Shown here one piece after another: positions 18,563 through 41,863 of a stretch of 64,000 nucleotides of DNA. The stretch covers positions 248,001 through 312,000 of the forward strand of contig NZ_JALJYF010000002.1 of NCBI RefSeq assembly GCF_024170465.1. Direction: 5' to 3'. Position 1 is the stretch's first letter, and each line of letters starts with the position of its first letter. The notes beneath the pieces were generated by a model. That model was given only the letters and a program-made list of their open reading frames with translations. It was not told where the DNA came from and made no database searches. The position numbers and the translations under genes were made by a program. Source of the DNA: Natronospira proteinivora (GTDB taxonomy: Bacteria; Pseudomonadota; Gammaproteobacteria; Natronospirales; Natronospiraceae).

Positions 18563-19750
18563 TCAATCCGCACCCAGCAGCAACACGGCATTGCTGCCAC
18601 CAAAGGCAAAGGAGTTACTCATGGCCAATCGATGCTGCCCTTGAATCCACCCCCCGGGCGAAACCAGATCCAGCGGGGCCAGTGAGGGATCATTTTCGCC
18701 GTCCCAGACATGGGGTGGCAACTGCCCCCCGCCATAGGCCTCATGCAGGGCCAGCCAGCAAAAGGCCGCCTCCGTAGCCCCGGCCGCCCCCAGGGTATGC
18801 CCCACCATGCCCTTGCTGGAGCTGGCCGGCACGCCTCCCGGGAAAACCCGGGCCACAGCATGGCTCTCCATCAAATCGTTCTTCATGGTACCTGTTCCAT
18901 GCAGGTTGAGGTAAGCAATGTCGACCGGATCACAGCCGGCCATGGCCAGGGCCAAGCGCATGGCCTGCTCGGCGCCCACCCCGTCCGGATCGGGTGCGGA
19001 AATATGGTGGGCGTCGGAACACTCGCCCCAGCCCATCAGGCGCAGCGGTCCTGGCGCTCGACTCATCAGAAACAGAGCAGCGGCTTCACCAATATTGATG
19101 CCATCCCGGTTGCGGCTGAAGGGATTACAGGCCTGAGCGGAGACGCTTTCCAGGGCATCGAAGCCGTTCACGGTCAGATCACACAGAGAATCCGCGCCCC
19201 CGGCGACCACCACATCACACAGCCCCAATTCCAGCATTCGGGCGCCGGCAATCAGGGCCTTGCTGGACGAGGTACAGGCAGTGGACAGAGTCAGCGCCGG
19301 CCCGGAAACGGCCAGATACTCGGCCAGAAATTCCGAAGGACTGCCCACCTCCTGCAGACGATAATCAAACTCAGCCGGATACTGTCCCGAGTACTGGTGG
19401 CTGGCCACGGCGGCCTCGCCTTCCCGGACACCGGAGGTACTCGAGCCAAGTACCACCGCCACTCGATCGGGACCATGGCGTTCAATCGCCGCCTGTACTT
19501 CGGACTCGATTTCTTGAAGGGCCCCCAGCAACAGACGATTGTTACGGCTCGCCCGATGGGTCCAGCCTTCGGGCACAGCCGGCAATTCATCGCTGCAGGC
19601 ACCCACCGTGGCCTCGCCCCCCCGCAGCAGGGGCATGCGGCGACTCAGCCCATGGCGGGTGCCCGCCAGCATGGCCTCGGTCACCGACGCCTTGTCGCGG
19701 CCCAGGGGGTTGATCAGGCCCAGGTGGTTGAGATAAATCCTGCTGCTCAT
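18563..19750 (-). CDS. apeO: Aryl polyene beta-ketoacyl-ACP synthase ApeO
   Basis: A 395-residue ketosynthase with an intact active site: Cys159 in STACTSSSK, His in NLHGTGTMKND and His in MVGHTLGAAGATEA. Residues around the entrance (LNLHGTGTMKNDLMESHAV) match the ApeO/FabB-like branch of aryl polyene clusters. ApeO is the catalytic partner of the ketosynthase-like ApeC, which here is the first gene of the operon (30739-31503). Together they would elongate the aryl starter with malonyl-ACP units. The ATG overlaps the stop of the DUF3261 lipoprotein gene. The C-terminus SNSFAFGGSNAVLLLG is family-typical. Confidence 0.92.
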   Translation of the reverse strand: MSSRIYLNHLGLINPLGRDKASVTEAMLAGTRHGLSRRMPLLRGGEATVGACSDELPAVPEGWTHRASRNNRLLLGALQEIESEVQAAIERHGPDRVAVVLGSSTSGVREGEAAVASHQYSGQYPAEFDYRLQEVGSPSEFLAEYLAVSGPALTLSTACTSSSKALIAGARMLELGLCDVVVAGGADSLCDLTVNGFDALESVSAQACNPFSRNRDGINIGEAAALFLMSRAPGPLRLMGWGECSDAHHISAPDPDGVGAEQAMRLALAMAGCDPVDIAYLNLHGTGTMKNDLMESHAVARVFPGGVPASSSKGMVGHTLGAAGATEAAFCWLALHEAYGGGQLPPHVWDGENDPSLAPLDLVSPGGWIQGQHRLAMSNSFAFGGSNAVLLLGAD

Positions 19751-26927: not shown

Positions 26928-27274
26928 TGGGATGCTCCGAAAAACAGTCGGCCTTCGGAACACAGGGGGCCATCCAGTCCATCCAGGGTCAGACGCCAGT
27001 CCACCTGGCCATCGCGGGCTTCCAGGTGCAGGCAAAGCTCACAATCCGGCTGGATTACCCGTTGGAATTTCACCGAGCGCAGGCCCTGGAAGCCTCCATC
27101 GGGACAGAGATCCCGCTCGGCCAGTTGGCGGGCCCATTCCACCTGAACCAGGCCGGGCAACACCGGGTGGCCGGGAAAATGGCCCCGAAACCAGGGCAGA
27201 TCGACGGGCACGGCCAGGCGGTATTCGGCCACCGGCCCCCTGACACGCTCGCTCAGTATGGGTGGCAGACTCAT
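26924..27274 (-). CDS. apeI: Aryl polyene dehydratase subunit ApeI (FabZ-like hotdog)
   Basis: A 116-residue hotdog protein with the FabZ active-site signature WFRGHFPGHPVLPGLVQ; His32 or His36 is the probable catalytic base. It is shorter than FabZ itself but normal for ApeI, which forms a hetero-complex with ApeP in the Xenorhabdus pathway and removes water from each 3-hydroxyacyl-ACP. The start shares one base with the apeH stop (TGATG), and its stop overlaps the apeJ start. Together these fix its reading frame and place it in the operon between ligase and transferase. Confidence 0.9.
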   Translation of the reverse strand: MSLPPILSERVRGPVAEYRLAVPVDLPWFRGHFPGHPVLPGLVQVEWARQLAERDLCPDGGFQGLRSVKFQRVIQPDCELCLHLEARDGQVDWRLTLDGLDGPLCSEGRLFFGASQ

Positions 27275-28653
27275 CAGGCCCCCTCCTGAAACAAGGCCAG
27301 CAGATCAGCCCGGCGCAGCTTGCCCATGGGATTGCGGGGCAAGGTTTCCAGGTAGCGAAAGCGTCGCGGCAGAGCAACCTCGGTGAAACGGGTGGCCAGT
27401 TGCGCCCGCAACTGCCGCTTGAATTGCCACTTGCCCAAGGCCTCCAGGGCTTGCTGACCGACCTCACTCAGGGCCAATACTGCTGCCGTGGTCTGCCGCT
27501 CGCCGTTCAGGCGCAGCACCGCGGCTTCCCGGACCCAGTCGCTGGCTTCCAGGGCAGTCTCGATTTCGGCCAGTGAGATACGGCGATCCTCGATCTTGAT
27601 CACCCCGTCACTACGCCCCAACAACTCGAATCCGCCTGCGGAATCCAGCCGCCGCCGAGCCCGGTCACCCGTATCCAGCCATTCATGACCAGTGGCCGGG
27701 GATCGGACCTGCATGGGCCCCGGCTCAGCGTCCGGGAATGCCAGCTCGACGCCGGCAAAGGTCTGCCAGTGTGCATGCTCGGGCCGTCCCTGATCACGGA
27801 AAGCAATGCCACCGGTCTCGGTACTGCCATAGACTTCCCATACCGCCAGGGGGTCCAGGGCCCGGTGCAGGGCCAGGGAGGTGGAAGCGGGTAGCGGCCC
27901 GGCAGAAGAAAACACGCCATCCAGCCGACCGGCGGAAGCCACCAGAGCGGTATAGCCCGGCCAGCGTTTGAGATGGGCTGGGCTGCTCACCAGGACACTG
28001 CGGGGGAAGCGATCGATGGCAGCGGCAATTCGGGGGGGCTCCAGCAGGGCCAGCTCCGGCACGGGCCGCCCGGCTACGAAGGGCCAGAGCAAGCGAAACA
28101 GCAAGCCATAGAGATGGAAATGGGGCACCGTGGCCACCACCGCACTCGCTTCAAGGAGATCGCCCCAGGCCTCCTGCAACACCAGCAGCTCGTCTTCCAG
28201 CTGGGCCAGGGTCTTGTCCACCCGCGTGGGCTCACCGGTGGAGCCGGAGGTAAACAACAGCAGGCGAGCCTTGCGGGAAAGCTCAATGGGCGTATTCACC
28301 GGGGCTCCCGCCGCCACCGCCACATCCCGGTCGTCCGCCAGCTCGGGGGCCCCACTGACCAGACCCCGCTGGTCATCCACCAGCTGTCGCACCGCAGCCA
28401 CGCCACTGTGAGGGGGGAGCACGGGGGTTGCACCGGCCGCCAGCACCCCCAGCACAGCGGCCAGGAACCGGGTGGCGTTGTCATCCACCACCAGCCATTG
28501 CTGGCGGGAGTCTTCGGACACGTTACGTCGGACCTGCTCGACCATGGACCGCAACAGACCCAGGGAATGGCCTTCGGCCTCCGGATGCCAGCTGATGATT
28601 CGCCCTGTATCGGATTGATTCAGGGCGGCGGTTAGCTGAGTGGCAATGGTCAT
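27274..28653 (-). CDS. apeH: Aryl acid-AMP ligase for polyene starter activation (ApeH)
   Basis: A 459-residue ANL-family ligase. The AMP-binding loop is LLLFTSGSTGEPTRVDKTL. The sugar-phosphate binding part is EVYGSTETGGIAFR, and the hinge and C-terminal motif is LDTGDRARRR ... LGRSDGVIKIEDRRISLAEIE. The last catalytic Lys region reads NPMGKLRRADLL. ApeH charges the aromatic starter (4-hydroxybenzoate or 4-coumarate type) onto the ACP. Here the neighbouring ammonia-lyase would favour a cinnamate-type acid. The start is the ATG overlapping the apeG stop (ATGA); a GTG four codons upstream is possible. Confidence 0.9.
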   Translation of the reverse strand: MTIATQLTAALNQSDTGRIISWHPEAEGHSLGLLRSMVEQVRRNVSEDSRQQWLVVDDNATRFLAAVLGVLAAGATPVLPPHSGVAAVRQLVDDQRGLVSGAPELADDRDVAVAAGAPVNTPIELSRKARLLLFTSGSTGEPTRVDKTLAQLEDELLVLQEAWGDLLEASAVVATVPHFHLYGLLFRLLWPFVAGRPVPELALLEPPRIAAAIDRFPRSVLVSSPAHLKRWPGYTALVASAGRLDGVFSSAGPLPASTSLALHRALDPLAVWEVYGSTETGGIAFRDQGRPEHAHWQTFAGVELAFPDAEPGPMQVRSPATGHEWLDTGDRARRRLDSAGGFELLGRSDGVIKIEDRRISLAEIETALEASDWVREAAVLRLNGERQTTAAVLALSEVGQQALEALGKWQFKRQLRAQLATRFTEVALPRRFRYLETLPRNPMGKLRRADLLALFQEGA

Positions 28654-29225
28654 GGCGCTGACCACCGGCGCCGCTGATGCTGACGAATACCGTACTCAAT
28701 GGCAAACAAGGTGGCCACCAGCAAATAACTGATCAGGCCGTTATAAAGCCCCCAAAGCCAGTCCGGTGCCCACAGGGCCGTGGCCAGGGCGACCAGGCTG
28801 TTGGCAAACAGAAACAGGCTCCAGACCCGGGTAACCTGGCGGGTGTAGGGGATGGCCTCCGGTGGAAGTTTCCCCTCCCGCAAACGGGCAATCCGTTCCA
28901 CCAGGGGACGTTCGCTGAACAGGGAGGAAAAAAACAGGCTGAACACGGCCAGATTGGCCAGGACCGGATAAAAACGAATCCCCAGCATGAAATCCAGTTC
29001 CAGCCAAAGCGGTAGGGCCAGCAGGATCCCCAGTATCACGACCAGACTCCCTTGCAGGATCAGTGTCTGCCGATGAAACCATCGGGCGGACAGCAAGCGA
29101 AGGGTCATCAGACCCAGCAGGACCATCCAGAGCGTACCCACTTCCCAGAAGCGGATTCCGGCAATCACTGCCAGGGGATACACCGCCAGGCCAATGCCAG
29201 TGATCGCCGGAAGGGGGTTCTTCAT
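28650..29225 (-). CDS. apeG: COG4648 membrane protein ApeG
   Basis: A 191-residue membrane protein with five or six hydrophobic segments and short loops. It ends in a basic tail (RQHQRRRWS). Between the helices runs a conserved stretch, FFSSLFSERPLVERIARL followed by YTRQVTRVWSLFLFANSL, typical of the COG4648 family that accompanies ACP and ligase genes in aryl polyene clusters. No enzyme motif is visible. The start is an ATG with GGAGAAG at the end of the preceding ACP gene; an in-frame start 42 bases upstream lies inside the ACP gene. Its molecular job is unknown. Confidence 0.82.
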   Translation of the reverse strand: MKNPLPAITGIGLAVYPLAVIAGIRFWEVGTLWMVLLGLMTLRLLSARWFHRQTLILQGSLVVILGILLALPLWLELDFMLGIRFYPVLANLAVFSLFFSSLFSERPLVERIARLREGKLPPEAIPYTRQVTRVWSLFLFANSLVALATALWAPDWLWGLYNGLISYLLVATLFAIEYGIRQHQRRRWSAP

Positions 29226-29972: not shown

Positions 29973-30752
29973 CTACAAGAGCCCAAGCTCACGTTCAAAA
30001 AAGCGCTTCAGTCCCTGGGTCAGTCGTCTTACAGCCAGGCTCTCTTCCAGTCCTTCCACCTCGGCGAAGGCGCTGAGGGGGCGCGCCTCCAGGACCCGAA
30101 TCTTCAGTGTCCACACCCGATCCGGCACCCGATACCAAGGAGTCCCCTTATTCAGGGTGGGCGGCGTGCATTCCATGACCACCGGCATAATCGGTGCGCT
30201 GCTGGCCAGAGCAATTCGGGCCGCACCCCGGCGAAAGCGCAGGGGCTCGCCGGGCACGGTACGGGTCCCTTCTGGAAAAACGATAAAGGGTTCGTTTCGG
30301 GTGTTGAGGCGCTCAGCAGCGGTAGCCACCACCGATTCGGCCTCGGCATTGCTTACATAGCCCGCCGCACTCACCATCAATGCCAGCACCGGATTGCGCC
30401 AGGCAGACTGTTTGACCACGCAATCAGCCTCGGGTAACCGGGAGATCAACACTACCACGTCAATCAGGGTGGGATGCTTGACCGGCAACACCAGACAGCC
30501 CCCCGATTGGGCCAGCAAATGCTCGTTTTCGATCTCGAAACGCCCCAGACCCAATTTCTCGATCTGCCATGGCACGGTGGCAAAGCCCCAGCGAATCAGA
30601 CCGCGGACCCGGCGGCGGCGGGCTTTGGCGCTTCCCGGGATCAGCAGCACCAGGGGAAGCACCGCCAGGCTCATAACCACACCACCAAGACCAAAGCTGA
30701 GAAAGACCCAGCCTGTACCCAGGCTGCGGTAGATACGTTCAAGCGGCCACAT
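29973..30752 (-). CDS. apeD: Lysophospholipid acyltransferase family protein ApeD
   Basis: A 259-residue PlsC-like acyltransferase. The HX4D catalytic motif is His93-PTLI-Asp98, and the substrate motif FPEGTRTVPG follows about 90 residues later. One or two hydrophobic segments at residues 12-40 anchor it to the inner membrane. In aryl polyene systems ApeD probably builds the lipid to which the pigment is attached. The start chosen is the ATG with GGAG seven bases upstream, 14 bases inside the apeC end; a longer start lacks a good ribosome site. It is followed by a 224-base gap before apeE. Confidence 0.88.
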   Translation of the reverse strand: MWPLERIYRSLGTGWVFLSFGLGGVVMSLAVLPLVLLIPGSAKARRRRVRGLIRWGFATVPWQIEKLGLGRFEIENEHLLAQSGGCLVLPVKHPTLIDVVVLISRLPEADCVVKQSAWRNPVLALMVSAAGYVSNAEAESVVATAAERLNTRNEPFIVFPEGTRTVPGEPLRFRRGAARIALASSAPIMPVVMECTPPTLNKGTPWYRVPDRVWTLKIRVLEARPLSAFAEVEGLEESLAVRRLTQGLKRFFERELGLL

Positions 30753-31503
30753 GAACCGGCTCCAGCTGCCATGCCCGTCGCTCGCTACGCCAATCACCCC
30801 TGCCCTGTGGCCGAACCAGCCCCGTCAGCATGGATTGCAGAACGGCCGTTTCACCGGCGGGGTCACCTGGTGGCACGGCACGCCAGGCAAGACGAAACAG
30901 GGGGCCGGCCTGGGTGTCTTCCTTGGGCGCAACGCGCAAGGCCAGACAGGCGACGGGGGCGTCCTCGGGCAGATAATGGCGATAAAAGGCCGGTATCGAC
31001 TGCTCGGCCCAGACCATCAGGCAGTCCCGCTGGGAAACCGCTGCCTGCACGGCAGTTTCCAGCAAGCCCGCAGGCAAGGTATCCAGCCCCGCCGCCACTG
31101 CCGTAGCCGGCTCCCGATTTTTGCGGGCAATGGAATGCAGCCCCAGAATGGCGTTGTGGACGGAGAGAGAAAAGTCCCGGGGTGACAGCGGTTCGCCTTC
31201 GGCCAATGACTGTAACAGTGAATAAGATCGGGCCAATTCGCCATGCCGCGAAGCGAACACCATGGGCGCATGATCATCGGCATCATGCAGGGTGTCTTCC
31301 ATCACTCGAAACACCATTCGCGCCATGGGGCCCAGACGACGACGCTGCATGGCAGGCAGAAAACTGACGTCGGCACGCTCCTCGCCAGCGGGTGGCCCAC
31401 CCCGCTCGATCCAGGCCAGCCAGTCCTTATGGCTGCTCATGCCGGGCGCCCAGGCTTGCCAGTCACGCAATCGAAAATCGATCTCGGTCGAATTATTGTT
31501 CAT
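30739..31503 (-). CDS. apeC: Ketosynthase-like chain-length partner ApeC
   Basis: A 254-residue protein of the 'beta-ketoacyl synthase, N-terminal' family found first in aryl polyene operons. It is far shorter than a full ketosynthase. Where the nucleophilic Cys would sit it has DFSLSVHNAILGLHSIA, so it cannot form the acyl-enzyme. This agrees with ApeC being a chain-length-factor-like partner of ApeO. The start MNNNSTEIDF is chosen because the upstream extension lacks the family N-terminus. It is the first gene of the operon and faces the ABC transporter operon across an 89-base divergent gap. Its last 14 bases overlap apeD. Confidence 0.85.
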   Translation of the reverse strand: MNNNSTEIDFRLRDWQAWAPGMSSHKDWLAWIERGGPPAGEERADVSFLPAMQRRRLGPMARMVFRVMEDTLHDADDHAPMVFASRHGELARSYSLLQSLAEGEPLSPRDFSLSVHNAILGLHSIARKNREPATAVAAGLDTLPAGLLETAVQAAVSQRDCLMVWAEQSIPAFYRHYLPEDAPVACLALRVAPKEDTQAGPLFRLAWRAVPPGDPAGETAVLQSMLTGLVRPQGRGDWRSERRAWQLEPVHVAA

Positions 31504-31592
31504 GGTCCGCTTGCCAATCCCCATCCAAGATGGCGATAGTGTAAAGCCTGTTTCCCCTTTCCGCTGAATGGCGACCCTAAAAAGACCGTGCA

Positions 31593-32561
31593 ATGAGCAA
31601 TCCGGCCCCAGGCAAACCCACTCCCCTGCTGCAGTTATCCGGGGTTCAAAAACAATGGCCGGGACGGCCGCATCCCGCCCTGAACGGGCTCGACCTCACT
31701 GTCGCCGAGGGCCGCATCCTGGGGCTACTTGGCCCCAATGGGGCCGGCAAGACGACCTTGTTATCCGTGCTCATGGGCCTGACACCCGCAGATGCCGGTC
31801 GCTTTGAGCTGGATGGCCAGCCCCTGGACCGGCGACGCACCGCCTTGCGGCGTATCGCGGGCCTGGTGCCTCAGCATATTGCCCTCTACCCCAGTCTCAG
31901 CGGCCAACAGAATCTGGACTTCTTCGCCGGCCTGCTCTGGCGTCACCCCAGGGAACGGCAGCGGGCCGTGGACCGTTGTGCGGCCATTGCGGATCTGGGA
32001 GAAGCCCTGAATTACCGGGTGGAACAATACAGTGGCGGGCAGAAGCGACGGCTGAACCTGGCAGTGGGACTGCTGGGGGAACCCCGACTGCTTTTGCTGG
32101 ATGAACCCACCGTGGGCATCGATCCCCAGTCCCGTCATTTCATACTGGAATCCATTCGCCGGCTTTGCCGGGACGAGGGCATGACCGTGATCCACACCAC
32201 CCACTACATGGAAGAAGTGGAACAGCTCTGTGACGATGTGGCCATCATGGATGAGGGGCGCGTGCTGCTCAATGACAGCCTGGACCAGGCACTCCGTCAA
32301 GCCCGCGCCCTGGGGCGACTTCAGCTGCGCTTGGAAGGGTCGGCACCCAATTCACTGCTCGCGGCCTTGCGAAAAGAAGGCATCGTGGTGGAAGCAGTAC
32401 GCGACCATGAACTGTCCCTGAGCCTGGCCGAATGCAACCTCAGTCTGTCGGCCATCACCGAATTGATCGAAGCACAGCAACAAGTCATCAGCACCCTGCG
32501 CTTTGGGGCCAGCCTGGAAACCCTTTTCCTGTCACTCACCGGCCGGGCCCTGAGGGAATAA
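31593..32561 (+). CDS. ABC transporter ATP-binding protein of the resorcinol block
   Basis: A 322-residue ABC ATPase. Walker A is GPNGAGKTT near residue 50, the signature is YSGGQKRRLNLA, Walker B is LLLLDEPTVGID, and the H-loop His lies in VIHTTHYMEEVE. About 80 C-terminal residues after the core resemble the extension of drug- and lipid-exporting ABC-2 systems (DrrA/CcmA type). It is followed one base later by its permease. Location between the aryl polyene and resorcinol genes suggests export of the pigment or its precursor, in addition to the MMPL route, but this is not shown by sequence. Confidence 0.93.
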   Translation: MSNPAPGKPTPLLQLSGVQKQWPGRPHPALNGLDLTVAEGRILGLLGPNGAGKTTLLSVLMGLTPADAGRFELDGQPLDRRRTALRRIAGLVPQHIALYPSLSGQQNLDFFAGLLWRHPRERQRAVDRCAAIADLGEALNYRVEQYSGGQKRRLNLAVGLLGEPRLLLLDEPTVGIDPQSRHFILESIRRLCRDEGMTVIHTTHYMEEVEQLCDDVAIMDEGRVLLNDSLDQALRQARALGRLQLRLEGSAPNSLLAALRKEGIVVEAVRDHELSLSLAECNLSLSAITELIEAQQQVISTLRFGASLETLFLSLTGRALRE

Positions 32562-32562
32562 G

Positions 32563-33720
32563 ATGCATCGACTGATCTCATTGATCTGGAAGGAATGGCA
32601 GGTGCTGGCCCGGGACCCCCATGGCCTGGCGGTACTGTTTCTCATGCCGGCGGTTTTCATCCTGGTCATGTCGGTGGCCCTGCAGGATGTCTTTGCGCCG
32701 GATGGCGAGGAAATGGGACAAGTCGCTGTGGCCGACCCCATCCCCGACGCCACCGCGGAAAGCTTTCTCGATCACCTGTCAAAACGAGTCCTGCTGGTGA
32801 CTGTGGACGCCAATGATCCCCTGGCCCGGGATGAGGTACGCCTACAGCTGGCAGCGGATTTTGGAGAACGACTGACGGCCCTGGTTGAAGATCCCGGTGA
32901 AAATCCCGCTCCCGCTTTGGACCGCTTGGCGGACCCCGGCGTGGATGGCCGTTCTCTGCAAGTCATCGATAGTGCCATCCAGATGGCATTGGGCGAAGCC
33001 CTGTCGGAGATGGAAGGTGACGGGGAAGTGGCCGACCTGCTGACCCAACTGGATCGCCACGCCATTCGCGGTCTGCGGCCTGGCCAGGCAGATCCCACCA
33101 CCACCCTGAGCTCGGTGCAGCAATCGGTTCCGGCCTGGCTGGTCTTTGGCATGTTTTTCGTGGTAATCCCCCTGTCCACGGTACTGATCGGGGAACGCCA
33201 GGAAGGCACCCTGGACCGGCTACGCCTCATGGGGGTGGGTCCGAGCATTCTCCTTTTGGCCAAACTGCCGGCCTACTTTCTGGTCAACCAGGTCCAGTTG
33301 CTGGCCATGCTGGCGATTGGCTTCTGGATTGTTCCCCTGGCGGGCGCCGAGGCCCTTCAACCGCCGATTCATCTCACCGCCCTGATACTGGTGGCCTCCA
33401 TTACCAGTCTGGCCGCCATCACCTTTGCCCTGCTGGTGGGCGTTATTGCAAAAACCCATATGCAGGCCACCACGGCCGGCGGTGTCTTCAATATCCTCTT
33501 TGCCGCCGCCGGGGGCATCATGGTGCCGCGATTTGTCATGGCGGATACCATGCAGTCCGTGGCGTGGCTCTCTCCCATGGGCTGGGCACTGGATGGTTTT
33601 CTGGCCGCCTTTCTGCGCGAGGACGCCCTGTCCGTAATATGGCTGCCGCTGCTGGGGCTTTCCCTGTTTGCCCTGCTCTGCTTCCTGTTGGCGGTGGGCA
33701 TCATCGCCCGCCGCCACTAG
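32563..33720 (+). CDS. ABC-2 type permease
   Basis: A 385-residue permease. One N-terminal helix (residues 20-40) is followed by a soluble periplasmic domain of about 150 residues, then five or six helices beginning at VPAWLVFGMFFVVIPLSTVL. The segment IGERQEGTLDRLRLMGV is the conserved E-[GR]-T-L-[ED] cytoplasmic loop of ABC-2 exporters, and the AMLAIG..VPLAGA and TFALLVGVIAKTHMQATTAGG segments are typical. It pairs with the ATPase one base upstream. The periplasmic domain is of the YhhJ/DrrB-like half-transporter kind, so two copies probably form the channel. Confidence 0.9.
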   Translation: MHRLISLIWKEWQVLARDPHGLAVLFLMPAVFILVMSVALQDVFAPDGEEMGQVAVADPIPDATAESFLDHLSKRVLLVTVDANDPLARDEVRLQLAADFGERLTALVEDPGENPAPALDRLADPGVDGRSLQVIDSAIQMALGEALSEMEGDGEVADLLTQLDRHAIRGLRPGQADPTTTLSSVQQSVPAWLVFGMFFVVIPLSTVLIGERQEGTLDRLRLMGVGPSILLLAKLPAYFLVNQVQLLAMLAIGFWIVPLAGAEALQPPIHLTALILVASITSLAAITFALLVGVIAKTHMQATTAGGVFNILFAAAGGIMVPRFVMADTMQSVAWLSPMGWALDGFLAAFLREDALSVIWLPLLGLSLFALLCFLLAVGIIARRH

Positions 33721-33804: not shown

Positions 33805-34074
33805 ATGTCTGGCTCTCAGGATGATCAATTCAAGCAATCGCTCAAGGAACTGATCCTGGAGGAGACCGGCAAGGACGAACTGAGCCCGGAACAGATCGCC
33901 GATGACGAGGCCCTGTTCGGGCCGGACACTTCCCTGGAACTGGATTCCCTGGATGGCCTCCAGGTATCGGTGGCACTGAAACAGCAGTTTGGTGTCGAGC
34001 TTAATGACAGCAAGCGTCTGCGCCGCGTGATGGCGAATATCAACACCCTGGCCGACTTCCTGCGCCCCGACTGA
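33805..34074 (+). CDS. Acyl carrier protein of the resorcinol block
   Basis: An 89-residue acidic ACP. Ser48 in LELDSLDGLQV is the phosphopantetheine site. The start has GGAGAAGG at ideal spacing; an in-frame ATG-like codon 54 bases upstream gives an unrelated leader. The stop shares one base with the ketosynthase ATG (TGATG). It is a third carrier, different from ApeE and ApeF, and supports an independent fatty chain made by this block. Confidence 0.93.
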   Translation: MSGSQDDQFKQSLKELILEETGKDELSPEQIADDEALFGPDTSLELDSLDGLQVSVALKQQFGVELNDSKRLRRVMANINTLADFLRPD

Positions 34075-35225
34075 TGCCCAAGCCAATCCACCCCGTGCAC
34101 ATCGTGGGCCATGCCATGGCCTGCCCCCACAACGACCCGGCTGCCGCCTTCCAGGCCGGTGCTCCGCCCACCTGGACCCCGCTGCCGGTTCCCGGCTATC
34201 CGGGTGTGGAACGACCTTACGGCTTCCTGCACCAGCGGGAAGCCCCCGAACAGGCCCTGGACCGGCTACTGGATGAAGCCTTGAGCCGGGCTGGCTTGAG
34301 TGCGGCGGAACGAGTCCAGGCCCCGGTTCTCATGGGCACCTCTTCGCTGAATATCGGCGAGAATGAAAAACGCATCATCGAGCAGCTGCATCAGAGCGAT
34401 TCATCCCCCGCCCTGGAAGATGCCCGCTGGGGTTTCATGCTGGATCAGTATTGCCAGCGCCACGGCCTGGAAGGTCCCCAGACGACCTTCAACACCGCCT
34501 GCAGCTCCAGCGCCAACGCCCTGCTTTACGCACAACGCATCCTGAGTCTGGATCTGGCACCCGCGGTGGTGGTCATCGGCTTTGAAGCCTATAACGGCAT
34601 CAGCTTTGGCGGCTTTCATGGACTAATGCTGCTGTCCCCGCAAGACTACCGTCCTTTCGATCCTTCTCGGCAGGGCATCATCCTGGGGGAGGGGGTGGCT
34701 GTGGCCGTGCTACGCCGGGACGACAAGGGTGCCGTAGCACGGTTGGAAGGCGGCGACACCGCCATCGACTTCACCGGCATCACGGTGGCTTCGGAAGACA
34801 GCCTGGCCCGTGTCATGCGCTCGGCCCTCGATAAAACCGGCAATACCCCGGTGCAGGCGATCAAGGCCCATGGCACCGGCACGGCCGGCAATGATCAGGC
34901 GGAAGCCAACGCCATCCACCAGGTATTCGGTGAGCAGGCACCCCCCTACTTTTCCCTCAAGGGCGGTCTGGGACACAGTCTGGGGGCCTGCGGACTGGTG
35001 GAACTGCTGAGCTTGAGCGTCTGCCGCGACAGGGGGTTTCTGCCCGCCTCTCTGGGCTACGGCGACCATCCCCCGCAGACCCAGGAAACCGCAGAGGAAG
35101 AGGAGATCGAGTCACTGCCCCTGCTGCCCCTGGATACACAGCAAGCCTGGCCGGAACCCGGACGGCTGCTGCTGAACTATTTTGGTTTCGGCGGCAATAA
35201 CACCAGCCTGGTGGTGACCCTGTGA
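34074..35225 (+). CDS. Beta-ketoacyl-ACP synthase of the resorcinol block
   Basis: A 383-residue ketosynthase with complete residues: Cys143 in NTACSSSANALL, His in KAHGTGTAGND, and His in GGLGHSLGACGLVE. The C-terminal NYFGFGGNNTSLVV replaces the usual NSFGFGG. It is divergent from ApeO and ApeR and is locked between an ACP gene and a cysteine-less partner. Together they look like a KS/chain-length-factor pair for one of the two acyl chains that DarA and DarB would join. The next gene starts at a GTG overlapping the stop by four bases. Confidence 0.9.
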   Translation: MPKPIHPVHIVGHAMACPHNDPAAAFQAGAPPTWTPLPVPGYPGVERPYGFLHQREAPEQALDRLLDEALSRAGLSAAERVQAPVLMGTSSLNIGENEKRIIEQLHQSDSSPALEDARWGFMLDQYCQRHGLEGPQTTFNTACSSSANALLYAQRILSLDLAPAVVVIGFEAYNGISFGGFHGLMLLSPQDYRPFDPSRQGIILGEGVAVAVLRRDDKGAVARLEGGDTAIDFTGITVASEDSLARVMRSALDKTGNTPVQAIKAHGTGTAGNDQAEANAIHQVFGEQAPPYFSLKGGLGHSLGACGLVELLSLSVCRDRGFLPASLGYGDHPPQTQETAEEEEIESLPLLPLDTQQAWPEPGRLLLNYFGFGGNNTSLVVTL

Positions 35226-36109
35226 GTGCGCCGGCCATCCAGCAATTCCGGGTCCTGGCAGCCGGCCAGTTCAGTCGCCCACTGGACTCGCCCGAGGGAC
35301 AGGACCTGCGAGACCTGTTCAAGACCGAAGGCCTGCCCCCCATTCGACGGGCCAACCGTTTCATTAGCCTGGCGGTACTCGGGGCCCATCGTTGTCGGCG
35401 GCATTACTCAGGCAAGCTCCCCGATGACTGTGGTACCTATCTGGCCACCGCCCACGGCAGCTTCACTGACACCGTCCGGCTATTGGAAGACCAGGTACAG
35501 CGCCATTTGCCCATCACGCCCTTTCGTTTCGTGAATGTATTGAGCAATATTGCCGGCTTTCATGTAGCCGCCCATCTGGGAACGTCCGGGGAAAACCTGG
35601 CCATTGCTCGCTTGAAGGGGGCGTTTGATGCGGCACTGGAAACGGCAGCCATGGACCTGGCCTTGGGACAGACTGACTGCGCCATGGTGGGTGGCGTAGA
35701 TGAAGGCGACGACGACCTGGCATTGCACCGCAGCCGCACCAAGACGCCGGAAGGCCGCATACCCGGAGAAGGCAGTGGCTGGCTTCTGCTCACTGCGGAT
35801 TTGCATCAGGAAGGGGCCCTTCTGCAACATGGCGGCGATTATGGTGATCCATCTGTGCTGGCCGATGCCTTGCACGATGCCCGGCCGGACTGCTTGGCAG
35901 TAGGCACCTCGGCCGATCGCCACCCGGCTTCCTTGCAGGCCGCCTTCCCGAATTATGCGGTGTGGGACTACCACCAGACCCAGGGCTGGATACTGAGCAA
36001 CCCGGCCATGGCCTTTGCCGAGCATATCTGTAACGGCGCCGGACGACTGGCCCATATCGATCAGACCGGCCCCCAGGGTCAATGGCGGCTATGGCTGCTG
36101 GATCGTTAA
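35222..36109 (+). CDS. Cysteine-less ketosynthase-like partner (chain-length factor type)
   Basis: A 295-residue member of the thiolase superfamily that is shorter than a full KS. The region matching the nucleophile reads FVNVLSNIAGFHVAAHLGTSGENLAIA, with no Cys at the active site, as in ApeC and chain-length factors. Later KS-like elements (GQTDCAMVGGVDEGD, RIPGEGSGWLLL) are still recognisable. The GTG start overlaps the stop of the active KS by four bases, so a 1:1 heterodimer is likely. The gene ends 18 bases from the converging BtrH-like gene. It is homologous in design to apeC, giving two KS/KS-like pairs in one locus. Confidence 0.82.
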   Translation: MSAPAIQQFRVLAAGQFSRPLDSPEGQDLRDLFKTEGLPPIRRANRFISLAVLGAHRCRRHYSGKLPDDCGTYLATAHGSFTDTVRLLEDQVQRHLPITPFRFVNVLSNIAGFHVAAHLGTSGENLAIARLKGAFDAALETAAMDLALGQTDCAMVGGVDEGDDDLALHRSRTKTPEGRIPGEGSGWLLLTADLHQEGALLQHGGDYGDPSVLADALHDARPDCLAVGTSADRHPASLQAAFPNYAVWDYHQTQGWILSNPAMAFAEHICNGAGRLAHIDQTGPQGQWRLWLLDR

Positions 36110-36127: not shown

Positions 36128-37165
36128 TCAGAGCTGGCGGGCAAGATGTTTCAGTGCCCGCCCTTCCTGTTCGGCGCAGCAACGTAGCTGCTCGGGCAAA
36201 CCCCTGAGCTGACCCGGGTCACCACTTTTCACGTAACGCGCGCCTTCCAGGGCAAAGTCGCGCCACTGTTCACCCGCCTCGGCCATCAAGGCCGCACTGT
36301 CTTCCAGGGCCGGAGACTGCATCCAGTCAGCCGCTTCCTGGAGGAAAGCCGCATAGAGGAAACGGAAGCCACCACCACCGGTACCGATTTCTTCCTGCAT
36401 GCGAATGATCTGGGCCACATAGAGCTGCTTTTCGCGATCCTCCAGGGATTTTCCCGACAGCTTTTCCAGACGCTTGGCCAGATGACGGATCCCCCGCAAG
36501 CCGATCCAGGGTACCGGCGAGTAACGCATCATGTTGCAGCTGCTGCGAATGGCACGGCGGGCGATTCCCGACCAGTCCAAATGCTTGGGGAAATCCTCGG
36601 GATAGTAGATCAGACCCTTGGGCGCAAAGGGCCCCCGGGCAAAACGAGCCTTCATCAGATCCCGCCAGGGCGCCCGCACCGGGTGATCAAAAACCGGGTC
36701 ACTGATCAGATAATCCTCCCCTTCCCGCCCATAGACGATCAGATTGTGGGCGTTGAAATGAAAGCGCATGTCCCGGGGGAAATAGGGCAGCCAGTACACC
36801 GAGGTCTGCAAGCCCACCGGGCGACCCTCGGCCAGATGGTCATCCAGGGCCTGCATGCCCGCCACCGGGTCCCGGAAGCGTTCCCGGTGCATGGTCAATC
36901 CCAGTCGCTTCTCCAGACCTCGAACCACCCGGCCCGGTGGCATGCGATAAGAAGTGAGGGGCTGTTGATTAACTCGAACCATGGGCAAATGGGCGAAGGT
37001 AAAGGCCGCCGAGAGCCCAAAGGCTGCCGGCTCACTAAGAGGCAGGCCCGCATGCCCCAGCAGACGGGCCATGACGCCGGTCTCACAATGAGCGGCATGT
37101 TGATGCTCAAAGGTGGGCACGCCGATCAACCCGGGGGAATAAGTGTCTGTGGCCACGGCTGCCAT
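36128..37165 (-). CDS. BtrH/DUF4872-like cysteine acyltransferase candidate
   Basis: A 345-residue protein with the BtrH N-terminal layout: a probable nucleophile Cys27 in HQHAAHCETGVMA, His140 in FHFNAHNLIVYG, and Asp156 in YLISDPVFD. The C-terminal half is helical, in line with DUF4872. The named relative BtrH moves an acyl group from an ACP to the amine of an aminoglycoside in butirosin synthesis. There is no signal peptide. Here the gene sits in one minus-strand set with darA and darB, so acyl transfer from ACP to the resorcinol or another acceptor is attractive. Sequence identity to BtrH cannot be judged by eye. ATG follows CAGGAG. Confidence 0.8.
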   Translation of the reverse strand: MAAVATDTYSPGLIGVPTFEHQHAAHCETGVMARLLGHAGLPLSEPAAFGLSAAFTFAHLPMVRVNQQPLTSYRMPPGRVVRGLEKRLGLTMHRERFRDPVAGMQALDDHLAEGRPVGLQTSVYWLPYFPRDMRFHFNAHNLIVYGREGEDYLISDPVFDHPVRAPWRDLMKARFARGPFAPKGLIYYPEDFPKHLDWSGIARRAIRSSCNMMRYSPVPWIGLRGIRHLAKRLEKLSGKSLEDREKQLYVAQIIRMQEEIGTGGGGFRFLYAAFLQEAADWMQSPALEDSAALMAEAGEQWRDFALEGARYVKSGDPGQLRGLPEQLRCCAEQEGRALKHLARQL

Positions 37166-37166
37166 C

Positions 37167-37616
37167 TCAGGGCTCCTGTTTCAACTGTTCGGTATCCATG
37201 TCCAGCACCTCGGCATAACGTCGTAACAGCCGGGGTGACAAACGGGAAAAAGGCCCGGGGCGCAAATGCCGGCGCACGCGCCAGCTCATGATGCCCATGG
37301 CCTGGGCGAGACTACCCGGATCCAGGCGGCGCTCGTACATGTAAAAGGCCAGAGGCGATGCCCGCCCGGCCTGGATCGCCGCCCGGGCTTCCCGGGCCAG
37401 TCGCTGGAATTCCGCGACCGCCGCCGTGGTCACGACCTCCTCCACCTTCCAGCCCTCGGACGGGATCATCCGATAATGGCCGGAGGCATCCCGGCGATAG
37501 ACAGCCTTGTGCTCACCCTCCAGCACCCGGTTCTCTTCCGATGCCAGCTCGTCCTCCGACCCCCCGACATCCGGGGGCGATACAGAGGCCTTGTTGTTGG
37601 GGACATCACTGACCAT
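37167..37616 (-). CDS. Uncharacterised protein with possible HTH segment
   Basis: A 149-residue protein of no recognised family. The N-terminal 35 residues are polar and disordered-looking. The C-terminal half contains a helix-turn-helix-like pattern, LDPGSLAQAMGIMSWRVRRH followed by SRLSPRLLRRYAEVLDM, reminiscent of XRE-type DNA-binding domains. A local regulator of the locus is therefore possible. The central part (EVVTTAAVAEFQRLAREARAA) is helical. The ATG lies just inside the end of darB, and the BtrH-like gene starts one base after its stop, so it belongs to the darA-darB transcript. Function unknown. Confidence 0.72.
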   Translation of the reverse strand: MVSDVPNNKASVSPPDVGGSEDELASEENRVLEGEHKAVYRRDASGHYRMIPSEGWKVEEVVTTAAVAEFQRLAREARAAIQAGRASPLAFYMYERRLDPGSLAQAMGIMSWRVRRHLRPGPFSRLSPRLLRRYAEVLDMDTEQLKQEP

Positions 37617-37618
37617 GA

Positions 37619-38779
37619 TCAAGCCACCGTCAACTGCATCCAGCAGCTGGTAAAGCGCCCGCTTTCGGGCACAAAACAGAGAATCTTCTGACCGGACTCA
37701 AGCTGACCACTGGCGGCGAGCTCTTCCAACATGATGAAGATGGAAGCCGCCCCCGTATTGCCGCGCTCCGCCAGATTGGTAAACCAGCGATCCTGGGGAA
37801 TCTCCGTCCCCACCCGGGCCATACCCTCAGTGAGAGGGCCCCGAAAGTACTCCGAGGACATATGGGGCAGGAACCAGTCCACGCTGGAAACATCCAGGCC
37901 CCGACGAGCACAGACCCGGGGCAGGGTCTCATCCACGGTCTTTTTCACCACTTCATCATTGAGCAGACGAACATCCTGCTTGACCGCCATTACCGAATTA
38001 CGGCCCAGCGCTTCAGGCCCTCCAAACTCCCGCCAGCCCTTTAGATAACCAGCCTTATTCTTCTCGGCACCGGCATACATGCAAACCGGCATATCACCGG
38101 CATGGGACGTGGAATCGATCCAGTCAATCCAAAGATTCACCGGTCCCGGACCGGGACGGTCTGATAGCAGCATGGCGCCTGCCCCGTCCGAGAGCATCCA
38201 GCGCAAAAACTCCTTTTCAAAGGCCAGCTCCGGACGTTGGGTCACCGCTTCCGCCCTCTCTTGGGCCAGCGCCTCTGCCTCCGCCTGAAAATGGGCCGAC
38301 CGCATCATCAATGAAGACGTCTCGGACCCGGTGGCCACGGCTTGCCGGGCTTCACCCACCGCCACCGCCAGCCAGGCCTGTTTCAAGGCCAGGATGCCGG
38401 CGCTACAGATGCCGCTGGTGGACACGGTTTCGCAGGGCCCCGCCCCCAACTCACCGTGGACCATGACGGCATGGGAGGGCATCAGCTGGTCCGCCATGCT
38501 GGTACCACAGGCCAGAAGGTCCATGCCCTCGGGATCAAACACCTTGCCATCCAGACGCCGAATAGCCTCGGCTGTCAGCTGGGCATTGTTCCAGCGGGGC
38601 TCACCGTTTTCCGAATCCAGCACATAGTGACGACGGCGAATACCGTTCTGGCGCAGAATCACCCGCCGGGCCCGGGAGGGCCGATCACCCACCTGGCCCA
38701 GAACCTTTTCCATGGCGTCATTCGTCACCGCTTCACCGGGCATGAAGCGGCTCAAACTGGTAATGCAGACCTTATTCAC
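37619..38779 (-). CDS. darB: KAS III-like resorcinol-forming ketosynthase DarB
   Basis: A 386-residue FabH-type ketosynthase. The catalytic set is Cys125 in TSGICSAGILALK, His in WFLPHMSSEY, and Asn in ERGNTGAAS. It has the DarB family's 'GIRRRHYVLD' N-terminus. DarB condenses two acyl chains to the precursor of a 2,5-dialkylresorcinol, and aromatisation occurs later. It overlaps the end of darA by eight bases. The downstream small HTH-like gene starts just beyond its stop. Named with good confidence because of the darA neighbour. Confidence 0.9.
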   Translation of the reverse strand: MNKVCITSLSRFMPGEAVTNDAMEKVLGQVGDRPSRARRVILRQNGIRRRHYVLDSENGEPRWNNAQLTAEAIRRLDGKVFDPEGMDLLACGTSMADQLMPSHAVMVHGELGAGPCETVSTSGICSAGILALKQAWLAVAVGEARQAVATGSETSSLMMRSAHFQAEAEALAQERAEAVTQRPELAFEKEFLRWMLSDGAGAMLLSDRPGPGPVNLWIDWIDSTSHAGDMPVCMYAGAEKNKAGYLKGWREFGGPEALGRNSVMAVKQDVRLLNDEVVKKTVDETLPRVCARRGLDVSSVDWFLPHMSSEYFRGPLTEGMARVGTEIPQDRWFTNLAERGNTGAASIFIMLEELAASGQLESGQKILCFVPESGRFTSCWMQLTVA

Positions 38780-39725
38780 GACAGAACTCTTCCATTCTCT
38801 CCCGGCCAGCCCCGGAAGGCTGTTCCAGACGTTGTTGTTTGTCTTTCAGGCGGCGGGCCAGCAGCGGCCGGGCCAGGGCCTGGACCAGCAGACTCATCGG
38901 CACCACGGTCACGATCATCAGCACCAAAAAGATCATGTAGAGATAGAGCACCGGATAGCGTCGACGCTGCCCGGGGCGACCTACGGCCCGAATCAGCTTC
39001 CCCCATAACTTGAAGCTACGATGGCCAATGGCCTCACTCATGATGAAACGACGGTCCACCCTGGCAGCCTCCAGGCCGGTCAACATGGCCTTGCCCTGCC
39101 GTTCCTCGTCTCTCGACAGCGCATCCAGCAGGGCATAGCCAAAACGCCGGGTGCTCCATATCTGGGATTCATGCAGGCCAGCGGGCGGCAAGCGCCCATT
39201 TGGTGACCCGCGCCGACCCGTCAGCATCCAGCGGGGCGTGGTAATAAAGGTGGCCAGAGGCGGCCCCGGGTCCACCAGGGCCACGTGGTCACAATGCCGA
39301 GCCCCGGCCTCCGCCAGCAGGGACTTCATCTTTTCCTGGGCGGTCAACCACATATTGCGGCAGGCCGTCACCGTGACCACCGGGGTATTGTGCAGGATTC
39401 GTCGGCCCTGTTGGGAACGCAGGAAACCGGTAAACGGCAAACTGGGTGACAAAAACCAGACCTGATAGACCATAATCACAAGGTCAAACTGCTCATCATC
39501 CAGCAGCAGGGGGTCCATCTCCGGGGGCAGCAAATGCACCGATTCGGGAAAGACATCCAGAAAGCGGGTCACCGTCCAGGGGAAGGGATACGCGACCTTG
39601 GGGCGCAGGCGGCCATGGACCACGTCCACCTCGCTGCTGGCTTCCAGAGGTTCAATCAGGGATTGCGCCACCTGATCGGTTTGCCCACTCTGTGACCAGT
39701 AAACCACCAAGACCCGTTTGCCCAT
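38772..39725 (-). CDS. darA: Dialkylresorcinol condensing enzyme DarA
   Basis: A 317-residue protein. The N-terminal domain has a flavodoxin-like start, VLVVYWSQSGQTDQVAQSL. A segment with HLLPPEMDPLLL and VYQVWFLSPSLPFTGFL follows. A C-terminal membrane helix (YLYMIFLVLMIVTVVPMSLLV) lies before a basic tail. These are features of the DarA family found beside DarB in dialkylresorcinol and flexirubin clusters. It is probably bound to the inner membrane through the C-terminal helix. The gene is first on its strand after a promoter-like TATAAT and diverges from the MipA gene. The family name is reliable; the chemistry of DarA is less settled. Confidence 0.88.
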   Translation of the reverse strand: MGKRVLVVYWSQSGQTDQVAQSLIEPLEASSEVDVVHGRLRPKVAYPFPWTVTRFLDVFPESVHLLPPEMDPLLLDDEQFDLVIMVYQVWFLSPSLPFTGFLRSQQGRRILHNTPVVTVTACRNMWLTAQEKMKSLLAEAGARHCDHVALVDPGPPLATFITTPRWMLTGRRGSPNGRLPPAGLHESQIWSTRRFGYALLDALSRDEERQGKAMLTGLEAARVDRRFIMSEAIGHRSFKLWGKLIRAVGRPGQRRRYPVLYLYMIFLVLMIVTVVPMSLLVQALARPLLARRLKDKQQRLEQPSGAGRERMEEFCRE

Positions 39726-39910: not shown

Positions 39911-40777
39911 ATGCGATGTTTTGCCCTCATATTGGCCTCGGCATTGACCCTGACCAGTCCAATGGTCTGCTCAGGGGAGGACGCCGCATCCAATGATACC
40001 CAAGGTGAAACTTCCCGCTGGGCCGGGGGCACACTGGAATATGGCATCGGACTGACCCGGCTCGCTTTCCCCCATTATCCCGGATCGGATCAGAGCCACA
40101 CCGTGATGATGCCCTTCCCCTACCTCACTTATTACAGCGAGCGGGTGGAACTGGATGGCAGCGATCTACAGGGTCGGCTTTGGCAAGGCGATCGCTTCGG
40201 TCTGGATATCAGCAGTGGTGGGGCCCTGCGGGTGGACGCCGATGACAATGAGGCCCGGGAAGGCATGGAAGATTTGGGATGGTTGGGGGAAATCGGCCTG
40301 GCGCTCAGATATTCTCCCCGCTGGACCCCAGGGAATCCGGATACCTGGCAGTATCGTCTCTCACTGCCGCTGCGCCAGGCGGTGGAACTGGATGGCAGCA
40401 GTCTGAGCCGGACCGGCTGGGTCCTCTCCCCCAATGCCGAAGTCCAGCGGGATTTCCATCTGGGACCACATCAATGGGAGTTTCAGGGACGACTCAGTGC
40501 CCGGTACGGTTCCACCGACTACCATCAACACTTTTACGGGGTCCCCCTGTCCGCAACGACACCGGACCGACCGGCCTATCAGGCCGAGGAAGGCTTTACC
40601 GCCTATGTGGCCTCCATGGGCCTGGCCTGGCGCCAGGGTCCTTGGTGGTTGGGGGGCTTTGTTCGGCATGAAAATTTCAGTGACAGTGTCGTGATCGACA
40701 GCCCGTTGTTACGAGAATCCAGGCAACAATCGGTGGGCGTGTCTGCCGCCTATATCTTTGGAAAACGTCGTCTATAA
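39911..40777 (+). CDS. MipA/OmpV family outer-membrane protein
   Basis: A 288-residue beta-barrel protein. The ATG opens a signal peptide (CFALILASALTLTSPMVCSGEDA). The motif GLTRLAFPHYPGSDQSH near residue 50 and GVPLSATTPDRPAYQAEEGF near residue 220 are MipA/OmpV hallmarks. Alternating strands end in AAYIFGKRRL, so the usual terminal aromatic is followed by four extra residues. A longer in-frame start overlapping darA is rejected because it lacks a signal. The gene lies between darA (divergent) and the O-methyltransferase. It may let a pigment intermediate or substrate through the outer membrane, but MipA proteins also serve as scaffolds. Confidence 0.88.
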   Translation: MRCFALILASALTLTSPMVCSGEDAASNDTQGETSRWAGGTLEYGIGLTRLAFPHYPGSDQSHTVMMPFPYLTYYSERVELDGSDLQGRLWQGDRFGLDISSGGALRVDADDNEAREGMEDLGWLGEIGLALRYSPRWTPGNPDTWQYRLSLPLRQAVELDGSSLSRTGWVLSPNAEVQRDFHLGPHQWEFQGRLSARYGSTDYHQHFYGVPLSATTPDRPAYQAEEGFTAYVASMGLAWRQGPWWLGGFVRHENFSDSVVIDSPLLRESRQQSVGVSAAYIFGKRRL

Positions 40778-40795
40778 CTCTTGGGGAAATACAAC

Positions 40796-41863
40796 ATGAT
40801 GCCCAGTTCCAAAGGCCGCATGCGCGCGGTCGAGGCCAAATCCTATGCCCAGTTTCTGGCCTTCGGCCCTTTCGCCTTTCAAGCCACCGTGGTTATGCGG
40901 GACTGTGGCCTGCTGGCCGCACTGGATCAGGGCGAGGGCGGCCACAGCCTGGCAAGCCTGGTGGATGACACCGGTCTGAGCGAGTATGCCGTGTCGGTTC
41001 TGCTGGATGTGGGCCGCAACATCGGCCTAGTGGAACGGGACGATGAAGGGTGCTTTCACCTGGGCCGGGTGGGTTTCTTCGTTCTGCATGACGAGATGAC
41101 CCGGGTGAATATCAATTTCACCCGGGACGTGGCCTATCAGGCCCTGCCCTATCTGGAGGCATCCCTGCGGGAATCCCGTCCGGCCGGTCTCAAGACCCTT
41201 GGGCCCTGGAAAACCATCTATGAGGGTCTGACCCAGTTGCCCGAACCCGCCCAGCAGAGCTGGTTCGAGTTCGATCACTACTATTCCGATCAGGTCTTCG
41301 ACCAGCTACTTCAACTGGTCTTCCAACGTCCCATTCGGCATTTGCTGGATGTGGGTGGCAACACGGGCCGCTGGGCATTGAAGTGCCTCAACCATGATCC
41401 CGGGATTAAAGTCACCCTGATGGATCTCCCGGGACAGCTCAAGGAGGCAAAAAAGAATCTGGAAGCAGCGGGTGTGGGGGATCGAGCCGACTATTACCCG
41501 GCGGATCTGTTGAAAACGGATACCCGCTTTCCCGAAGCGGCCGATACCATCTGGATGAGTCAGTTTCTGGACTGTTTTTCGGAACCGGAAATCGTCAGCA
41601 TCCTGCAACGTGCCGCAGCTTCCATGGATGCAGACAGCCGGCTTTTCATTGTGGAGTTATTCCCGGACCGACAGGGCTTTGAAGCCGCCCGCTTCAGTCT
41701 GGATGTAACCTCACTCTACTTCACCTGCCTGGCCAATGGCAACAGCCGCATGTACCACTATGACCGTTTTCTCGAGCTGGTAAAGCAGGCTGGTCTGGTG
41801 GTTGAAAAGGAGGTGGACCTGCCTGCCGGTGGACACACTTTCCTCAGTTGTCGGCGAGCCTGA
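40796..41863 (+). CDS. O-methyltransferase-like SAM-dependent enzyme
   Basis: A 355-residue class I methyltransferase. The N-terminal part is a winged-helix-like dimerisation domain (residues 15-110, LAFGPFAFQATVVMRDCGLL). SAM motif I is HLLDVGGNTGRWA near residue 185, followed by VTLMDLPGQL; the C-terminal HTFLSCRRA ends the fold. This is the hydroxyindole/small-molecule O-methyltransferase type. It ends the resorcinol block and could methylate a phenol on the polyene head or the resorcinol. The start is an ATG with GGGGAAAT upstream; a TTG 15 bases earlier is less likely. A terminator follows 18 bases after the stop. Confidence 0.87.
   Translation: MMPSSKGRMRAVEAKSYAQFLAFGPFAFQATVVMRDCGLLAALDQGEGGHSLASLVDDTGLSEYAVSVLLDVGRNIGLVERDDEGCFHLGRVGFFVLHDEMTRVNINFTRDVAYQALPYLEASLRESRPAGLKTLGPWKTIYEGLTQLPEPAQQSWFEFDHYYSDQVFDQLLQLVFQRPIRHLLDVGGNTGRWALKCLNHDPGIKVTLMDLPGQLKEAKKNLEAAGVGDRADYYPADLLKTDTRFPEAADTIWMSQFLDCFSEPEIVSILQRAAASMDADSRLFIVELFPDRQGFEAARFSLDVTSLYFTCLANGNSRMYHYDRFLELVKQAGLVVEKEVDLPAGGHTFLSCRRA

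Follow-up and report, generated by a model that had tools for sequence, protein, structure and literature searches.

The closest described counterpart of the locus analysed here is the arcuflavin cluster darA-K of Azoarcus sp. BH72, in which darJ is listed as a ketosynthase and darK as a hypothetical protein (Table 1 of PMC3949708). DarB-type enzymes join a β-ketoacyl thioester to an α,β-unsaturated acyl thioester (PMC4578411), and the DarABC operon of P. asymbiotica yields dialkylresorcinols (PMC4414361). The flexirubin cluster of Chitinophaga pinensis, which we liken to this locus by description, also combines resorcinol with polyene and includes several putative β-ketoacyl synthases (FlxC, I, L, N, and O); it differs in that no pair of a ketosynthase (KS) and a chain-length factor (CLF) is named in the accessible part of that account (PMC3992019). 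An active KS with a Cys-less partner is found in the ApeO-ApeC complex (6QSP; PMC8358021), and KS-CLF pairs are found in the ishigamide (Iga11-Iga12) and anthraquinone (AntD-AntE) systems. ApeC was reported with only one thiolase fold, and the study of Acinetobacter baumannii ApeC identified an Arg pair as the probable point of contact with the ACP (PMC8358021); in FabF, a pair of the same kind (R68/K69) contacts AcpP, and it is the monomer without the AcpP crosslink that provides most of the contacts (PMC7138838). In the openly accessible literature searched, we found no description of DarJ/DarK as a KS/CLF pair.

The dar Locus and Its Conserved Cassette

The 64,000-nt stretch of the Natronospira proteinivora genome analysed here (contig NZ_JALJYF010000002.1; hereafter the window) contains a dar locus of the Azoarcus type: DarB, DarG, and DarH score above their NCBIfam cut-offs, and genes for an ABC ATPase, a permease, an ACP, a KS (KS1), and a KS-like protein (KS2) follow one another in that order (Table 1). 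The set and order of darA, darB, darD, darE, darF, darI, darC, darJ, and darK are shared with Azoarcus sp. BH72 (PMC3949708), where darD corresponds to the DarG family of the window and the BtrH-like darE to NCBIfam DarH. The BH72 cluster differs in having a PHD/PilT pair inside it, whereas the window has the cassette convergent to darHGBA. The ACP, KS1, and KS2 genes are very probably darC, darJ, and darK, with the match between KS2 and darK made by position and annotation. DarA returned no Pfam or NCBIfam match and takes its name from its position. Genes for a MipA-like outer membrane protein (39911-40777) and an O-methyltransferase (40781-41863) adjoin DarA, and both are kept in a genome of the same genus (L057). 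Elsewhere in the window, an aromatic amino acid lyase (23658-25220; Pfam 7e-161) lies near an AMP ligase (27274-28665), which suggests, by analogy with tyrosine in flexirubin, an amino-acid-derived polyene starter.

Table 1. Genes of the cassette, the adjoining dar genes, and the polyene-block KS genes used for comparison, by position in the window.
Feature	Position	Strand	Evidence
ApeO, polyene-block ketosynthase (comparison)	18563..19750	-	NCBIfam PRK09185 497 bits, cut-off 407; ApeO clade
ApeC, polyene-block Cys-less partner (comparison)	30739..31593	-	Pfam PF13723 9.2e-53; RR pair, no Cys
ABC transporter ATPase, first cassette gene (darF-equivalent)	31593..32561	+	Pfam ABC_tran 1.3e-31
ABC-2 permease, second cassette gene (darI-equivalent)	32563..33720	+	Pfam ABC2_membrane_3 2.2e-22
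ACP, dedicated (darC-equivalent)	33805..34074	+	Pfam PP-binding 1.8e-5; DSL serine; start codon chosen by us
KS1, active ketosynthase (darJ-equivalent)	34074..35225	+	C143/H266/K296/H301; ApeO-sister clade; KS-fold model
KS2, Cys-less KS-fold partner, chain-length-factor-like (darK-equivalent)	35222..36109	+	No C-H-H; R42/R43; fold model; purifying selection
DarH, BtrH-related acyltransferase (darE of Azoarcus)	36128..37165	-	NCBIfam NF053550 449 bits, cut-off 300
DarG-family protein	37167..37622	-	NCBIfam NF053536 138.6 bits, cut-off 70
DarB, StlD/DarB-family ketosynthase	37619..38779	-	NCBIfam NF005293 538 bits, cut-off 450
DarA, aromatase/condensing protein	38772..39725	-	Adjacent to DarB, as in related loci

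The conserved cassette consists of the ABC ATPase, permease, ACP, KS1, and KS2, and is larger than the unit of a KS pair with its ACP given in the original prediction. Its order and strand are constant wherever the contig reaches, with the exception of L022, where no ACP was found; the window does have the dedicated ACP gene expected beside a type II KS-CLF heterodimer. In most loci, including the window, the cassette is convergent to DarH-DarG-DarB-DarA; L071 and L072 instead have the nine genes in one collinear, same-strand run. The cassette does not adjoin dar genes in about ten loci, and polyene genes lie near it in L012, L018, L069, and L070. No ketoreductase (KR), dehydratase (DH), or enoylreductase (ER) is encoded within the cassette, and so the pair alone could make only β-ketoacyl chains.

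Two Myxococcota loci have other arrangements. L022 (6489-10843; Myxococcota/Deltaproteobacteria) encodes the ABC ATPase, permease, KS1, and KS2 beside genes for an acyl-CoA dehydrogenase and a protein kinase, with no dar genes on the contig. L026 (3-5156) has a DarH fragment directly before ABC-ACP-KS1-KS2, in a MAG that has a weak DarB-like match and in which no full DarB was found.

Gene Anatomy and Catalytic Residues

KS1 (383 aa, ATG start) has the active-site residues of a functional ketosynthase, TAC143SSS, H266 (KAHGTG), K296, and H301 (GHSLG), and is followed by KS2 (295 aa, GTG start), the start of which shares the sequence GTGA with the stop of KS1. Directly upstream of KS1 is a PP-binding ACP with a DSL serine, a feature of nearly all cassette ACPs, and the stop codon of this gene overlaps the KS1 start (TGATG at 34072-34076). 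The original prediction of a KS with an active C143, overlapped through GTGA by a KS-like protein lacking the nucleophile, is correct in coordinates and residues, and the ACP that it assigned to the pair is likewise present. A 4-nt KS1/KS2 overlap like that of the window is seen in roughly half of the related pairs (with start codons chosen by script). The same prediction saw here a repeat of the ApeO/ApeC design; this stands as far as the combination of a KS with a Cys-less partner is concerned, but ApeO and ApeC lie ~11 kb apart in the window, whereas KS1 and KS2 overlap. In a Roseomonas locus (L141), ApeO (7884-9077) overlaps its CLF (9074-9868), unlike ApeO/ApeC of the window.

C143, H266, K296, and H301 are invariant in KS1 across 16 relatives (alignment A3), and in a wider set of 25 the first catalytic His is replaced by Gln in a single KS1 (L071). 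In KS2, the column of the Cys nucleophile is occupied by Lys in the window and by many different residues among 25 homologues, 24 of which have no Cys there, and neither catalytic His is conserved across the same 25. The KS2 of a Hirschia MAG (L023, 9980-10882) has a Cys at the nucleophile column and is missing both catalytic His residues.

KS2 is nevertheless a genuine relative of ketosynthases. Pfam ketoacyl-synt matches the window KS2 alone only weakly (E 9.9e-5), and 13 of 19 homologues match this family; searched against PDB sequences, the KS2 profile finds FabF (E 2.7e-9) and the ishigamide chain-length-factor chain 6kxd_B (2.6e-6). Membership of the ApeC family by Pfam was ruled out, in that PF13723 is matched by one of the 19 KS2 members and not by that of the window.

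ACP-Docking Arginine Pair

The window KS2 carries an arginine pair, R42/R43, which is RR in 24 of 25 aligned KS2 proteins and RK in the remaining one. We take this pair to occupy the position of R68/K69 in E. coli FabF, on the basis of an alignment with the FabF of this genome (RRMD) and of the E. coli FabF sequence. A Pro-x-x-Phe motif beside the FabF hydrophobic patch is also kept in KS2 and is common to ApeC. The RR pair is present in all five ApeC sequences and absent from KS1 (0/25) and ApeO (0/12), so that the dead partner, KS2, retains a docking surface that the live partner, KS1, no longer has. Among the sequence data, this split of the RR pair between KS2/ApeC and KS1/ApeO argues most strongly for an obligate heterodimer, which KS1 and KS2 very probably form.

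Predicted Structures

The AlphaFold2 model of KS2 (19 homologues; pLDDT 90, pTM 0.90) can be superposed on full KS folds over 283-289 residues, and KS2 is predicted to have a complete KS fold. The best match to the model is the ishigamide CLF 6kxd_B (Iga12; Z 25.6, rmsd 4.0, 289 residues aligned), together with AntE 6smp_C (Z 24.9, rmsd 3.5, 283 residues). These two chains have only 14 and 10 percent identity to KS2, which is ~55-70 residues shorter, and since FabF 2rjt_A scores Z 24.7 beside them (rmsd 3.5, 285 residues), the preference of KS2 for CLF folds amounts to a tie. ApeC does not appear among the PDB structures listed for KS2, to which we attach no meaning. KS1 was modelled at pLDDT 82, with Z ~40 to FabB/FabF, to ApeO-type 7f28, and to the KS chains of KS-CLF pairs.

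In the KS2 model both halves of the KS fold are retained in compact form, and the architecture is not the reduced single-thiolase-domain one. KS1/KS2 resemble ApeO-ApeC in having an active KS and a Cys-less partner, in carrying RR on the partner only, and in being the nearest clades in the unconstrained tree (see below), and differ in that KS2 does not match PF13723, is modelled with both KS-fold halves, overlaps KS1 translationally, and belongs to a cassette without KR or DH.

Phylogeny and Selection

A tree was built from KS1, KS2, ApeO, ApeC, ApeR, FabF-type KSs, and Streptomyces KS pairs. Without constraints, KS1 forms one clade (SH-aLRT 99) that is sister to ApeO (90), and KS2 forms one clade (97) that is sister to ApeC (91). 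In AU tests, neither the grouping of KS2 with ApeC (p 0.54) nor that of KS1 with KS2 (p 0.31) was rejected, with long branches in play, and after this test the strong claim that KS2 shares its descent with ApeC, and is not the product of an ancient KS1 duplication, was withdrawn. Profile-profile comparisons of KS2 gave similar values throughout, with E of 2.5e-8 for ApeO, 3e-7 for the Streptomyces Cys-less KS-like proteins, 9e-7 for ApeC, and 3e-6 for KS1. On a Streptomyces plasmid (L145, 2529-8815), four KS-like genes, two of which lack the nucleophile, are clustered with an ACP gene.

Constraining the window KS2 to group with the neighbouring KS1 (together with the pair from the same genus) was rejected (p-AU 3e-51), and KS2 is thus not a recent degraded copy of its neighbour. 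KS2 is under purifying selection, with pairwise dN/dS of 0.09-0.31, mostly slightly above that of KS1. Phylogeny had been named at the outset as the analysis that could expose KS2 as a degraded KS; the single KS2 clade, the rejected constraint, and the dN/dS values all speak against degradation. The distances within KS1 and KS2 mirror each other (r 0.92; 0/2000 permutations), as expected for partners inherited together.

The KS2 profile was run on 34 related loci, from 33 distinct contigs, and in every one it finds an open frame beside KS1; in L019 the two genes are ~1 kb apart, and in L011 KS1 is partial. KS2 is ~234 aa in L071 (9543-10247) and 196 aa in L072 (9669-10256), nearing the size of ApeC, and both loci have the collinear, Azoarcus-like gene order.

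Co-occurrence with DarH and DarB

Among 369 genomes drawn from the class, KS2 (threshold E<1e-16) was found in 17, DarB in 24, and DarH in 18, and the KS2 genomes lie entirely within both the DarH set (17/17) and the DarB set (17/17). Fisher tests, which treat genomes as independent though they are not, gave 2e-28 for KS2 with DarH and 4e-24 for KS2 with DarB. KS2 is absent from all six DarB genomes that lack DarH (p 5e-5 within DarB genomes, again treated as independent); in three of the six the DarB-like matches are all weak (38-40% identity), and G121, G214, and G237, the remaining three, encode DarAB without DarG/H and with an ApeC-family gene. The pair tracks DarH, not DarB alone, and given that KS2 is nested in the DarH set and absent from DarB-only genomes, it belongs to the resorcinol-polyene hybrid pathway. 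Three loci (L112, L113, and L114) encode DarAB and an ApeC-family gene with no DarG, DarH, or cassette, and are possible makers of free resorcinol plus polyene.

Across all 33 KS2 genomes, DarB is encoded in 31, a full DarH in 31, and a partial DarH in one, which also holds for genomes in which the cassette lies away from the dar genes, and 31 have an ApeC-family gene. The idea that several genomes with the cassette lack dar genes proved wrong, as DarB is located elsewhere in nearly all of them. The clear exception is the Myxococcota genome of L022 (G389), which has KS1, KS2, and the ABC genes without ACP, DarB, or DarH. Another genome, G148 (L111, 179-1060; L122), encodes DarABGH with a different ORF at the place expected for KS2; its ABC pair is on a separate contig, and the stretch read contains no ACP-KS1-KS2, for which an assembly gap and a loss are both possible explanations. 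Other KS2 matches were weak, at E 1e-9 or worse, and we treated them as ordinary KSs; among the genomes concerned are G338, G341, and G377, all three without DarB, and the G338 match is ApeR-like. A match on a Variovorax plasmid (H11) is not a dar locus.

Proposed Function

We propose that KS1 and KS2 are a DarJ/DarK-type ketosynthase and its CLF-like partner in a dialkylresorcinol-polyene (flexirubin/arcuflavin-like) pathway, where they would supply DarB; taken as a whole, we consider this explanation evenly poised between right and wrong. KS1 would perform the chemistry and KS2 would complete the acyl pocket at the dimer interface, with the KS2 arginine patch docking the dedicated ACP (DarC) so that it could reach the KS1 active site. 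An acyl starter and malonyl-DarC would be condensed without reduction to β-ketoacyl-DarC, which would serve as one of the two DarB substrates, the other being an α,β-unsaturated acyl thioester from fatty acid synthesis. DarA would then aromatise the ring and, judging from family names and published models, DarH would form the ester between resorcinol and polyene, and export of the product would fall to the ABC pair.

β-Ketoacyl-ACPs are normally transient in fatty acid synthesis. A pair that has an ACP of its own, in a cassette free of reductive enzymes, would be suited to make and hold a β-ketoacyl substrate for DarB, and this supply is the role that we prefer, if tentatively and with slightly less than even confidence. 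DarAB occurs without the pair in the DarB-only genomes, and Photorhabdus has DarABC; supply of the β-ketoacyl substrate by the pair is therefore not strictly required, and the model allows the pair to be dispensable where fatty acid synthesis feeds small amounts of free resorcinol. Also counting against the explanation are the loci in which the cassette does not adjoin dar genes, the four loci with polyene genes near it, the Myxococcota genome G389, and the weakly secured deep position of KS2 beside ApeC.

The tight link to DarH rather than to DarB could point to the esterification step, which is where the main rival explanation places the pair: KS1/KS2 would place an acyl chain, probably a polyenoyl one, on DarC or lengthen it there, for transfer by DarH to a resorcinol hydroxyl. 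KS2 occurs in 17 of the 18 DarH genomes and in no DarB genome without DarH, the nearest relatives of KS1/KS2 in the unconstrained tree are ApeO/ApeC, nearly all KS2 genomes carry an ApeC-family gene, the DarH fragment of L026 directly precedes the cassette in the Myxococcota MAG described above, and DarH is of the BtrH type, which is ACP-dependent by family. However, no aryl-polyene-only system is known to require a pair of this kind, addition of malonyl would leave a β-keto end requiring the KR and DH that the cassette lacks, and the function of DarH is itself taken from its family name; we regard this explanation as rather unlikely. We are similarly doubtful that KS1/KS2/DarC constitute a separate class of type II synthase, sister to ApeO/ApeC, the product of which would be the acyl group attached by DarH or a chain handed over from polyene carriers, with KS2 acting mainly as a dead ACP-docking subunit.

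Two type II sets in one locus had originally been taken to mean that the resorcinol side chains are made within the cluster, that is, by an iterative synthase that would build alkyl chains to a set length and borrow KR, DH, and ER from fatty acid synthesis. A second KS/Cys-less pair with its own ACP is indeed present, the combination of KS, CLF-like partner, and ACP is the classic chain-length-setting design, and the cassette is linked to dar genes. The proposed making of side chains fares less well, given the DarAB-only genomes without the pair and the lack of reductive enzymes in the cassette. In addition, according to the accessible part of the arcuflavin study (PMC3949708), the dialkylresorcinol (DAR) part of native arcuflavin has the same MS3 pattern as DAR made heterologously with the Azoarcus DAR proteins, a tentative sign that the pair is not needed to fix chain length, which may be set by DarB. 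We consider an iterative side-chain synthase improbable. We consider it highly improbable that KS2 is a KS copy in decay or without function: the lost catalytic residues, the low Pfam score, and the shortened versions in L071 and L072 would fit decay, but intact genes next to KS1 in 33 other loci, invariant residues, constrained dN/dS, and the rejected origin from the neighbouring KS1 rule out a pseudogene.

Implications

Both KS/CLF proteins as a kind and dar operons as a type were already known, and what is added here is a likely role for darK, by which a protein listed as hypothetical in a pigment operon is given a function class. The preferred assignment of β-ketoacyl supply to the pair, set against delivery of an acyl chain to DarH, turns the substrate supply and joining of dialkylresorcinol-polyene hybrids into a simple mutant and enzyme test. 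If KS1/KS2/DarC were instead a separate synthase class with its own ABC exporter, the cassette would be the module that defines the resorcinol-polyene hybrid pigments of Proteobacteria. The apparent division of roles in both KS1/KS2 and ApeO/ApeC, with catalysis on one subunit and the docking arginines on the other, would offer a reason, open to testing, for the retention of Cys-less partners.
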